From an uncultured Lentibacter sp. (lineage in GTDB: Bacteria; Pseudomonadota; Alphaproteobacteria; Rhodobacterales; Rhodobacteraceae), in assembly GCF_937123735.1 (NCBI RefSeq), contig NZ_CAKZKL010000033.1, positions 1-64,000 on the forward strand: 64,000 bases of DNA, in the 5' to 3' direction. Below are positions 5,513-49,773 of the stretch, one piece after another (position 1 is the stretch's first letter; the number at the start of each line of letters is the position of its first letter). Both the position numbers and the translations under genes were made by a program. The notes beneath the pieces are model-generated. The model saw only the letters and a program-made list of their open reading frames with translations. It was not told the origin of the DNA and made no database searches.

Positions 5513-5655
5513 CTTTCTTATTGCCCTAAATATCCCAACTCAACCGCGCAACAGGTGCGCTCTATCGGGTATTGCCTTTGCTGTGCAAACTGCTTGGGGG
5601 GTGCGGGGGGCTTGCCCCCCGCCCGGGTCGGATTTTCGCGCAGCGAAAATCCGAC
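5513..5655 (-). repeat. Modular multi-hairpin element (minus orientation) immediately 3' of uspA
   Basis: Stem GTCGGATTTTCGC-GCA-GCGAAAATCCGAC at 5627-5655, G/C hairpin at ~5595-5626, TTTGC-nnn-GCAAA stem, 25-nt box, distal TGGGATATTTAGGGCAATAAGAAAG (revcomp 5513-5537). Confidence 0.75.
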
Positions 5656-26897: not shown

Positions 26898-27009
26898 TTC
26901 GAATTTGCTTCGCAAATCCGACCCGCTGGGGGCGCTGCCCCCAGACCCCCGGCCAGGCTGGGGGACCAGTCCCCCAGACCCCCTGGGATATTTAGGGCAA
27001 TAAGAAAGA
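26898..27009 (+). repeat. Modular multi-hairpin element 3' of fbp
   Basis: TTTGC-TTC-GCAAA stem, GGGGGC-GCT-GCCCCC, GGGGGA-CCAG-TCCCCC, distal GGGATATTTAGGGCAATAAGAAAGA (26985-27009). Confidence 0.72.
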
Positions 27010-30342: not shown

Positions 30343-30415
30343 TGCGCACGCAGGTTAAGGAAGGCGCGCAGAGACTGCGCACGCAGGGTTGTTGAGGTGC
30401 GCAGAGACTGCGCAC
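30343..30415. repeat. Two tandem 33-bp repeats plus partial third
   Basis: TGCGCACGCAGG...GCGCAGAGAC repeated at 30343 and 30376 (26/33 identical), TGCGCAC again at 30409. Confidence 0.8.
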
Positions 30416-30468
30416 CCTACGGCGGCGGCGCTGCGGTAGGTGTTGTGCGTGGGGCGGCGGCGGGATTT

Positions 30469-30492
30469 GGATATTTTTGGCAATAAGAAAGG
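30469..30492 (+). repeat. Solo distal box GGATATTTTTGGCAATAAGAAAGG
   Basis: Match to distal box of the modular elements, without preceding hairpins. Confidence 0.7.
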
Positions 30493-31883: not shown

Positions 31884-33359
31884 ATGACATTCATGAAATT
31901 TGCAACCGCCAGTGCGCTGGCGATGATGGTGGCTGGCGCGGCTGCGGCCAAGAGCGATATCACGCTGGCGATGCAGCTTGAGCCGCCGCATCTGGACCCG
32001 ACGAGCGCCGCTGCGGGGGCGATTGACAGTGTTTTGTATTCCAACGTCTTTGAGGGGCTGACACGCTTTGCCTCGGATGGGTCGATCATCCCCGGGCTTG
32101 CGCAGAGCTGGGAGATTTCGGACGACGGGCTGACCTATACCTTTAAGCTGGCTGAGGGCGTGAGCTTTCATGACGGCACGAGCATGGACGCGGAGGATGT
32201 GAAATTCTCGCTCGACCGTGCGCGCGCCGAGGACAGCGCCAACGCGCAGAAGGCGCTGTTTGGCAGCATTGCCGAGGTGGAGGCTGTGGACGCCAGCACC
32301 GTGAAGATTACCTTGAGCGCGCCCAATGGTTCGCTGCTCTTTAACCTCGCTTGGGGCGATGCTGTGATTGTGGCGCCGGAGAGTATTGAAAACATCAAGC
32401 AGGCGCCTGTGGGCACGGGGGCGTTCAAATTCGCCAACTGGGTGCAGGGCGACAACATCACGCTGGAGCGCAACCCGGACTATTGGGGCACGCCAGCCAA
32501 GCTTGATAAGGTGACCTTCAAGTTTATCTCCGATCCGACGGCGGCCTTTGCTGCTGTGATGGCGGAGGATGTGGACGTGTTTGCGGGCTACCCTGCGCCT
32601 GAGAATGTGCCGCAGTTTGAGGCGGATGCGCGCTTTCAGGTGATTGTGGGCAACACCGAGGGCGAAACGATCCTCTCCACCAACAACAAGATGCCGCCGT
32701 TTGACAATGTGAAGGTGCGCGCCGCACTGGCCCATGCGATTGACCGTCAGGCGATTGTTGACGGGGCGATGTTTGGCCTTGGCACGCCGATTGGCACGCA
32801 TTTTGCGCCGCATCATCCTGATTATGTCGATCTGACCGCCGAGAGCGCCTATGACCCCGAGAAGGCCAAGGCCTTGCTGGCGGAGGCGGGTTTTGGGGAT
32901 GGTTTTACCACCACGCTCAAGCTGCCGCCGCCCTCCTATGCGCGCCGTGGCGGGGAGATTATTGCTGCGCAGCTCAGAGAGGTGGGTATTCAGACCGAGA
33001 TCACCAATCTGGAGTGGGCGCAGTGGCTTGAAGAGGTGTTCAAAGGCAAAGATTATGGCCTGACCATTGTGAGCCATACCGAGCCTATGGACATCGGGAT
33101 TTATGCGCGGCCGGATTACTACTTCCAGTATGATGATGCGGAGTTTCAGGCGATGAACACTGCGCTTGAGGCCGAGGCCGACGTGGCCAAGCGCAGCGCG
33201 CTGCTGGACAAGATGCAGCGCAAAATTGCGGGTGATTATGTGAACGGCTACCTCTTCCAGCTGGCCATTCCGACCATTGCCAAGGCGGGTGTGCGCGGGC
33301 TTTGGGAGAATGCGCCGACGCAGGCCAACGACATGACGGGCGTTTACTGGGCCGAATGA
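31884..33359 (+). CDS. ABC transporter substrate-binding protein, family 5 (peptide/opine type)
   Basis: Signal peptide (MTFMKFATASALAMMVAGAAAA), SBP_bac_5 features (AQSWEISDDGLTYTFKLAEGVSFHDG). Confidence 0.87.
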   Translation: MTFMKFATASALAMMVAGAAAAKSDITLAMQLEPPHLDPTSAAAGAIDSVLYSNVFEGLTRFASDGSIIPGLAQSWEISDDGLTYTFKLAEGVSFHDGTSMDAEDVKFSLDRARAEDSANAQKALFGSIAEVEAVDASTVKITLSAPNGSLLFNLAWGDAVIVAPESIENIKQAPVGTGAFKFANWVQGDNITLERNPDYWGTPAKLDKVTFKFISDPTAAFAAVMAEDVDVFAGYPAPENVPQFEADARFQVIVGNTEGETILSTNNKMPPFDNVKVRAALAHAIDRQAIVDGAMFGLGTPIGTHFAPHHPDYVDLTAESAYDPEKAKALLAEAGFGDGFTTTLKLPPPSYARRGGEIIAAQLREVGIQTEITNLEWAQWLEEVFKGKDYGLTIVSHTEPMDIGIYARPDYYFQYDDAEFQAMNTALEAEADVAKRSALLDKMQRKIAGDYVNGYLFQLAIPTIAKAGVRGLWENAPTQANDMTGVYWAE

Positions 33360-33401
33360 GCCACAAAGCCAGCGTCTGCGCGGTTTGCGGGCGCTGGATT
33401 T

Positions 33402-33425
33402 GGATATTTAGAGCAATAAGAAAGA
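33402..33425 (+). repeat. Solo distal box GGATATTTAGAGCAATAAGAAAGA
   Basis: Near-identical to boxes at 26985 and 39371. Confidence 0.7.
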
Positions 33426-38269: not shown

Positions 38270-38296
38270 ATCGCATTTTGCGGTGCAAAATCCGAT
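38270..38296 (+). repeat. Module-A hairpin 3' of ALDH gene
   Basis: ATCGCATTTTGC-GGT-GCAAAATCCGAT. Confidence 0.65.
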
Positions 38297-39214: not shown

Positions 39215-39395
39215 TCGGATTTTCGCTGCGCGAAAATCCGATCCGGGTGGGGGCGCTGCCCCCTAGATTCAAAAGCCTTGGGGCTCTTGAATCATTCCCC
39301 AGGTTTTTTTCTGGGGGACCCATCCCCCAGACCCCAGTTTTGACTGGGGGACCAGTCCCCCAGACCCCCTGGGATATTTAGAGCAATAAGAAAGA
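39215..39395 (+). repeat. Modular multi-hairpin element 3' of SDR gene (longest copy)
   Basis: TCGGATTTTCGC-TGC-GCGAAAATCCGA; GGGGGC-GCT-GCCCCC; GATTCAAAAGCC-TTGG-GGCTCTTGAATC; GGGGGA-CCCA-TCCCCC; GGGGGA-CCAG-TCCCCC; GGGATATTTAGAGCAATAAGAAAGA. Confidence 0.8.
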
Positions 39396-41701: not shown

Positions 41702-41728
41702 GGGCTGGCCGAGGGGCCGGCCCTTTTT
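41702..41728 (+). terminator. Intrinsic terminator after asd
   Basis: GGGCTGGCC-GAGG-GGCCGGCCC-TTTTT. Confidence 0.8.
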
Positions 41729-41741
41729 GTTCGTGAGCTGG

Positions 41742-41845
41742 TTTCGAACGCTGCGCGTCCGACCCATTGGGGGCGCTGCCCCCAGACGCAGGTTTAACTG
41801 GGGGCGCTGCCCCCAGACCCCCGAGGTATTTTTGACCAGAAGAAG
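41742..41845 (+). repeat. Modular multi-hairpin element downstream of asd terminator (variant distal box)
   Basis: CGAACGC-TGC-GCGTCCG, two GGGGGC-GCT-GCCCCC hairpins, GAGGTATTTTTGACCAGAAGAAG (41823-41845). Confidence 0.68.
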
Positions 41846-43585: not shown

Positions 43586-43758
43586 ATCGGATTTTCGCTC
43601 TGCGAAAATCCGATAGTTGCGGGGGACTGGTCCCCCAGACGCAGGTTGAACTGGGGGCCAGCCCCCAGACCCCCCGAGCTCTTTGCGAAGCAAAGGTGAT
43701 GACCGATAGAGCGCACTTGCTGCGCGGAATCGGTGGGATATTTTTGGCAATAAGAAAG
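43586..43758 (+). repeat. Modular multi-hairpin element 3' of DUF4139 gene
   Basis: ATCGGATTTTCGC-TCT-GCGAAAATCCGAT; GGGGGA-CTGG-TCCCCC; TTTGC-GAA-GCAAA; CCGATAGAGCGCACTTGCTGCGCGG; GGGATATTTTTGGCAATAAGAAAGA. Confidence 0.8.
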
Positions 43759-49612: not shown

Positions 49613-49720
49613 TCGAATTTTCGCTGCGCGAAAATCCGACCAAGGGGGGCGCTGCCCCCCAGTTTCAAAAGCTTGGCAGCTTTTGAAACCTCCCCCCGAG
49701 GTATTTTTGACCAGAAGAAG
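49613..49720 (+). repeat. Modular multi-hairpin element 3' of speB (variant distal box)
   Basis: TCGAATTTTCGC-TGC-GCGAAAATCCGA; GGGGGGC-GCT-GCCCCCC; GTTTCAAAAGCT-TGGC-AGCTTTTGAAAC; GAGGTATTTTTGACCAGAAGAAG. Confidence 0.78.
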
Positions 49721-49773
49721 CCAGGACCGCGCGAAGGGCTGAAATGCTGCGCGCGTTCAGTTTTTTTTGTGCC

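Follow-up and report, generated by a model that had tools for sequence, protein, structure and literature searches.

A strand-biased gene-end element of the Rhodobacteraceae with a constant distal box and a third-strand-patterned C-tract: a candidate U-poor transcript-end signal

Structured elements at gene ends in the window

The DNA analysed here (the window) is a stretch of 64,000 nucleotides from an uncultured Lentibacter sp., a member of the Rhodobacteraceae, a family of marine and soil bacteria. The copy that drew attention to the element lies on the plus strand behind a short-chain dehydrogenase gene. Two nucleotides 3′ of the stop codon, it begins with an A/T stem, TCGGATTTTCGC-TGC-GCGAAAATCCGA (39215..39241), which is followed by three extra hairpins read from the sequence (39249..39313), namely GGGGGCGCTGCCCCC at 39249-39263, GATTCAAAAGC...GCTCTTGAATC at about 39265-39292, and CCCCAG-T-rich loop-CTGGGG at about 39295-39316. 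The last hairpin, CTGGGGGA-CCAG-TCCCCCAG (39344..39363), consists of a purine arm (G1), a loop and a pyrimidine arm (C1), and after a 3-nt linker comes a predicted third strand, CCCCCT (C2), together with a purine, G (R), that would pair with the loop (39365..39371); the call is based on the parallel match of this tract to the GGGGGA arm and the CCAG loop. The element closes with a distal box, GGATATTT-AGA-GCAATAAGAAAG (39372..39394).

Other complete copies combine the same parts differently. Behind the Usp gene, on the minus strand (5513..5654), an A/T stem (5628-5654) that begins 4 nt after the sense stop codon is joined by a G6/C6 hairpin with a C6 tract (about 5596-5620), a GCGC stem-loop module and a box (5513-5535). 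The remaining copies are all on the plus strand. After the FBPase gene (26899..27008), the A/T stem (26899-26921), two G5/C5 hairpins, the C2 tract with T and R (26979-26985) and the box (26986-27008) are found, while after the DUF4139 gene (43587..43758) an ATCGG/GCGC stem-loop module separates the C-tract from the box (43736-43758). The element after the arginase-family gene (49613..49720) contains an A/T stem, a G6/C6 hairpin, an interposed TTCAAAAGC hairpin, C6+G and a box (49698-49720), and a stem resembling a T-run terminator lies downstream of it, at about 49740-49769. At 41744..41845, a short stem, two G5/C5 hairpins, C5+G and the box GAGGTATTTTTGACCAGAAGAAG (41823-41845) stand behind a T-run terminator (about 41707-41730), and at 38271..38295, 6 nt after a stop codon, there is an A/T stem without a box.

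All of the copies listed in a first-pass annotation of this DNA were found, but the list was incomplete, as it had overlooked two boxes that have other hairpins upstream and no A/T stem: GGATATTTTTGGCAATAAGAAAG at 30469..30491, and an element at 33369..33424 made of a stem (33369-33397) and a box (33402-33424), located in the gap that separates an SBP_bac_5 gene from the next and with its box kept in two congeners. That annotation had described modular elements placed directly after stop codons. The description holds for the A/T stem, since six of these stems do start 2 to 6 nt after a stop (26899, 39215, 43587, 49613, 38271 and, on the minus strand, 5628-5654), but not for the box, which typically lies 50-130 nt past the stop in the genome of origin. 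The motif TCGnA...TCCGA of the A/T stem occurs seven times in the window and is followed by a box in six: five are stop-adjacent, that at 41744 follows a T-run terminator rather than a stop codon, and that at 38271 lacks a box. Over a larger collection, mostly of sequences selected for boxes, a box follows in 36 of 42 cases and the stem is mostly 2-7 nt past the stop codon. What is conserved is the box; A/T stem and G/C hairpins are optional modules.

The distal box, its placement and its spread

The conserved distal box noted earlier is well borne out, with GGATATTTnnnGCAATAAGAAAG occurring exactly six times and GAGGTATTTTTGACCAGAAGAAG twice in the window, against none of either in shuffles. 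In the whole genome (2.92 Mb), a relaxed form of the box, TATTTNNNNCMANAANAA, has 145 copies and its reversed pattern none, and the GGATATTTnnnGCAATAAGAAAG form has 84 copies at ≤2 mismatches, the reversed control again giving none. The box, RRKTATTT-NNR-VCMANAWGAAR, is about 22 letters long and non-palindromic, and it constitutes the constant part of the element, whose palindromes vary. Boxes that contained TATTT and matched a loose 3′ pattern were collected from all loci fetched by that stage, and the 274 non-redundant ones gave the consensus RRK-TATTT-N-N-R-V-C-M-A-N-A-W-G-A-A-R, with a spacer of two nearly free positions and a third that is a purine in 90%. The spacing is fixed, given that nearly all listed matches in high-copy genera kept one spacing even when a spacer of 3-9 nt was permitted, and the 3′ half shows triplet-like variation. 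As had been observed before, there is no clear T-run: downstream of the hairpin, the consensus RRKTATTTNNR offers no unbroken U-tract. The spacer (+8 and +9 from the start of TATTT) is G-rich in about 15% of boxes and could pair with the preceding C-tract, forming an alternative hairpin across TATTT.

Upstream of 102 boxes of the same genome, sorted into approximate classes, we found a G/C hairpin followed by a C-tract in 46 cases, the same arrangement with an interposed hairpin in 14, a small GCC-TNC-GGC-type hairpin in 10, the ATCGG/GCGC stem-loop module in 8 and other structures in 24. In the GCC-TNC-GGC-GN′ hairpins that precede some boxes (e.g., L214, L030 and L020), N′ usually complements the middle loop base (TCC with GG, TTC with GA, TGC with GC), echoing the triplex-type loop-purine rule set out below. 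The stems most often end at -13 from TATTT (61%, as against 6% in shuffles), and the C-tract occupies the space between; copies without the C-tract pattern mostly use another stem, nearer the box.

Neither placement nor orientation is random. Boxes are intergenic, falling within ORFs in only 3/102 and 3/137 cases. The orientation was previously said to follow that of the upstream gene; this applies to most copies but not to all, since the upstream neighbour, taken in the orientation of the box, points toward it in 82/102 copies of the genome of origin (p=4e-10), 87/124 in named species (p=8e-6) and 39/53 in other genera, according to gene calls by a simple codon-usage caller of our own that may be wrong in individual cases. 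When a single neighbour ends at the box, the sense:antisense ratios are 29:14 and 56:27, and the antisense-only arrangement accounts for 14/102 and 27/124 boxes. Where genes converge, some 12-20 nt separate the end of the box from the opposing stop codon, which leaves little room for another terminator, and opposed pairs of boxes are found at convergent gene ends in several genomes. Of 25 transcription-unit ends in the window, seven carry a box, six a T-run terminator and one both; box-bearing ends are without a T-run terminator at 58/63 named loci and 6/7 in the window, but the box and the lack of such a terminator are not significantly associated (p=0.14 and 0.65), and in some copies (41744, 49613, L013 and L036) such a terminator lies before or after the box. 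The genes upstream of boxes are ordinary metabolic and transport genes. No tRNA was recognised as a gene ending at a box in 121 scanned sources, which held few tRNAs (three in 120 loci and none in the window).

The box is confined to the Rhodobacteraceae, where it occurs in many genera, and about 137 other alphaproteobacterial families gave only chance-level matches. Within the family, some genera have up to 137 boxes per genome and many others next to none or none at all; carriers include Allgaiera, Maritimibacter, Cypionkella, Pseudorhodobacter, Albidovulum, Defluviimonas and Donghicola. The motif, otherwise found only in Rhodobacteraceae, is also carried by CP059262.1 (L335), a 4.26-Mb chromosome titled Exiguobacterium profundum isolate SSD5 (MAG), a record that is probably mislabelled.

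In a synteny block common to the genome of origin and two congeners (roughly 71-84% DNA identity), the orthologues of the gene ends at 33359, 39212, 41676 and 43580 bear elements in at least one congener, often with another module, one copy being degenerate and one absent. At orthologous sites in two species of another genus, box and hairpin are likewise kept while the bases of the spacer drift. The 3′ halves of the boxes are species-specific within one genus, with GCAATAAGAA in the genome of origin, GCAAGAARAA in congener G374 (71 copies) and AAGAGAAGAA in congener G174 (23 copies), as though the copies had either changed in concert with a reader or been homogenised among themselves.

A parallel third-strand rule

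The most informative feature of the element had gone unseen in the first-pass annotation. Read base by base, the C-tract that links the last G/C hairpin to the box is a parallel image of the purine arm of that hairpin, with G rendered as C and A as T, as in GGGGGA/CCCCCT, GGGGGAG(C)/CCCCCTC, GAGGGG/CTCCCC and GAGAGGGG/CTCTCCCC, or GGAGGGG/CCTCCCC in other genera. In 94 elements, an A of the arm stands opposite T in 57/60 positions and a G opposite C in 475/485, and the lengths of arm and tract agree (G4:C4 in 8/8, G5:C5 in 68/75 and G6:C6 in 24/24). The base after the C-tract is a purine complementary to the loop pyrimidine, with 30 C:G, 14 T:A and no crosses in the genome of origin (p=9e-12) and 44, 2 and one cross, respectively, in other genomes (p=0.003), and the linker between the two C-tracts measures 3 nt in 80/82. 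About 60% of the copies in the genome of origin show a C-tract of this pattern after the hairpin. Where hairpin and tract were found in congeners, TAYTT came next in 8/12 cases, and a further module came first in the others.

Because the search patterns behind some element sets already prescribed part of the C-tract, permutation within sets is the relevant control; in a joint test of this kind, 179/198 elements fit the rule, whereas 2000 permutations gave 63 on average and 81 at most. The same was observed for unique combinations (60/76; permutation mean 19, maximum 31) and for elements with an interposed hairpin (32/48; mean 13, maximum 20). Tracts in the CCCCGGAG-box set fit too, with few arms containing A. 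In most of the misfits, the arm has an A at its bottom edge. Wherever the orthologous ends of the congeners are readable, the rule is found again; at the 39212 end, for instance, the genome of origin has GGGGGA-CCAG/CCCCCTG, G174 has GGGGGC-TTT/CCCCCA and G374 has GGGGGGA-CCAG/CCCCCCTG.

Two other origins of this pattern were considered. Watson-Crick strand exchange, with C2 replacing C1, was rejected, since it would need the reverse order with A-containing arms, and GAGAGGGG is seen with CTCTCCCC. That hairpin and tail were copied together is unlikely to be the whole cause, as the hairpin top, the loop type and the loop base vary in combination, and the tail matches each combination. Templated copying yields antiparallel complements, not parallel ones; thus, the mirror relation argues for selection for a third strand. 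The parallel relation is that which a Hoogsteen third strand would give, and it suggests, at the level of sequence, that a triplex may physically form. This covariation constitutes unusually clear sequence evidence of a triplex-type structure under selection in bacterial genomes, and it yields precise, testable single-base predictions.

Relation to known systems and a possible role in ending transcripts

Several described systems share traits with the element. Like intrinsic (Rho-independent) terminators, it has a GC-rich hairpin at gene ends, is strand-specific and continues into about 8 nt of A/U-rich sequence, and its stable GC-rich hairpin stands immediately upstream of the predicted release region; in contrast to them, it has no U-tract (only TATTT), a predicted third strand lies between hairpin and hybrid, and an 11-nt sequence is conserved downstream of the predicted 3′ end. 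REP and GTAG-tagged palindromic repeats are also short, intergenic and present in many copies, but the constant part of the element is a non-palindromic 22-nt box and its palindromes are what varies. The GGTGCGCAGAGACTGCGCACCCTACGG repeats at 30345-30420 of the window, found also upstream of the L007 and L010 boxes, resemble GTAG-tagged REP sequences. The BoxC/PIT/TM_ECO elements, which are intrastrand triplex elements (Holder et al. 2015, PMC4666352), are likewise repeated intergenic hairpins to which a mirror-related third strand is tethered through a 3-nt linker. However, TM_ECO has a C-G-G order on the purine strand, 9-nt stems, no strand bias and no reported terminator activity (PMC4666352), while our element has a G-C-C order on the sense strand, with the third strand at the 3′ end and 4-8 nt long, is strand-biased and is tied to a box; the TM_ECO consensus, CCCTCNCCC-N3-6-GGGNGAGGG-N3-GGGNGAGGG, gave no matches in the 1.99 Mb scanned. 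We therefore did not file the element under BoxC/PIT/TM_ECO, because consensus, strand order and strand bias differ, or under intrinsic terminators, because there is no U-tract. HRC-8-4 is another terminator-like structured motif restricted to Rhodobacterales, but according to its published description (PMC8632094) it is found chiefly between cco operons and has conserved nucleotides in its loop and a run of U, whereas our element is genome-wide and has a box and no U run. In Rfam, no family reached its gathering score in the window or in eight loci. The best sub-threshold match was the Guanidine-II riboswitch (RF01068), which also has paired G/C hairpins; it was rejected, given its 25.3 bits at 39310-39361 against a gathering score of 32, loops of CCAG, GCT or TTT, and a location at 3′ ends. 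We found no earlier description of the motif or its 3′ ends in the open-access papers searched; subscription journals could hold one.

The idea that these elements set 3′ ends without a canonical T-run, raised in the first-pass annotation, remains the best reading of its function, so that the earlier interpretation is partly supported. With moderate confidence, we propose that the element is a Rhodobacteraceae-specific, strand-specific transcript-end signal similar to a U-poor transcription terminator; that it terminates transcription, that a triplex physically forms, that RNA and not DNA is the folding strand, and that something reads the box is what we infer. The GC hairpin would form in the nascent RNA, the C-tract would lie parallel in its major groove as a third strand while the next purine pairs with the loop base, and this triplex, or the alternative stem near the box, would extend as far as the 8-nt RRKTATTT segment. 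With the third strand out of the polymerase, RRKTATTT would be in a weak RNA-DNA hybrid and the active site at NNR, where the RNA would be released, and VCMANAWGAAR would be read as downstream DNA by the polymerase or a lineage-specific factor. For the 39215 element, the predicted RNA 3′ end falls in 39380-39382. Counted from the second spacer base, G at -10 and -11, a pyrimidine at -1 and G at +1 resemble the pause consensus of the polymerase. A bolder version, possible but rather doubtful in our estimation, is that of a terminator class in which a cotranscriptional RNA triple helix does the job of the U-tract, its structure reaching the RNA-DNA hybrid, and in which release is set by the family-specific downstream box, read by the polymerase or a co-evolving factor.

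In favour of a terminator speak the third-strand rule, the peak of stem ends at -13, the co-directional upstream genes, the boxes at convergent ends, the usual absence of a T-run at box-bearing ends and the persistence of the box at orthologous ends despite the exchange of modules. On the other hand, antisense-only copies require an extra assumption, such as antisense transcription being blocked; some boxes lie near T-run terminators; and many genera of the family have few boxes or none. Furthermore, the 33402 box is conserved in both congeners within a likely transporter operon, where read-through must then be possible. That box follows a peptide-binding protein gene and precedes the next transporter gene, in congener loci L446 and L447 as well, and it may set the binding protein:permease ratio by partial termination. 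As regards the folding strand, RNA is able to accommodate a third strand of pyrimidines but not one of purines (a point cited in PMC4666352), and the sense strand of the element bears a pyrimidine third strand, in line with a role at the RNA level. That argument has its counterpart in the other DNA strand, which could adopt a purine-motif triplex instead. Contiguous C+ triads are disfavoured near neutral pH.

It is conceivable that a purine-motif DNA triplex on the antisense strand stalls the polymerase or shapes chromosome topology at gene ends, given that every element has the matching order on its antisense strand and that purine-motif triplexes rich in G are stable at neutral pH (PMC4666352); yet the third strand is consistently 3′ in the sense orientation and the box is strand-biased, both of which favour a transcription-coupled role, and we consider this reading the least probable. 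Hardly more probable are repeats of a selfish or structural kind (REP, MITE or BoxC/PIT-like) that invade gene ends without a role in transcription. The many modular copies, the large differences in copy number between genera, the species flavours and the precedent of the E. coli BoxC/PIT repeats (PMC4666352) would be in keeping with this, but the box is kept at orthologous sites in spite of spacer drift and differing flanking modules, the parallel match must be maintained by selection, and a strand bias relative to genes exists.

Polar roadblocks such as Tus and TTF-I are known from other settings, and the box could be the DNA site of a sequence-specific protein acting as a polar roadblock or insulator, with the hairpins contributing RNA release or stability. 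A non-palindromic motif of about 22 bp with strict spacing, found at convergent gene ends, would suit such a site, as would 3′ halves that are common to all copies of a genome, as if they tracked a reader, even though homogenisation of copies could also produce these flavours. No candidate protein was found, however, and a protein site would by itself leave the third-strand rule and the constant upstream structure unexplained; we judge this reading unlikely. We give no better chance to a transcribed 3′-UTR module, concerned with RNA stability, RNA binding or a barrier to exonucleases, with termination taking place elsewhere. Hfq binds an A-R-N motif, which the MAN-AAN-AAR periodicity of the 3′ half, with its triplet-like variation, resembles; stable hairpins are stacked right past the stop codon, and in a few copies (e.g., 49613, L013 and L036) a T-run terminator lies downstream of the box. 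Nevertheless, a T-run terminator is missing, within the region examined, from most ends with a box, boxes are often only 1-30 nt from an opposing stop codon, and the RRKTATTT half and the fixed spacing would have no explanation.

The preferred reading, a U-poor signal for transcript ends, suggests a previously undescribed way of ending transcripts. If it is true, a large environmental family would end many of its transcripts by a signal that is invisible to terminator prediction based on U-tracts, and the annotation of operons as well as strain engineering would be affected.
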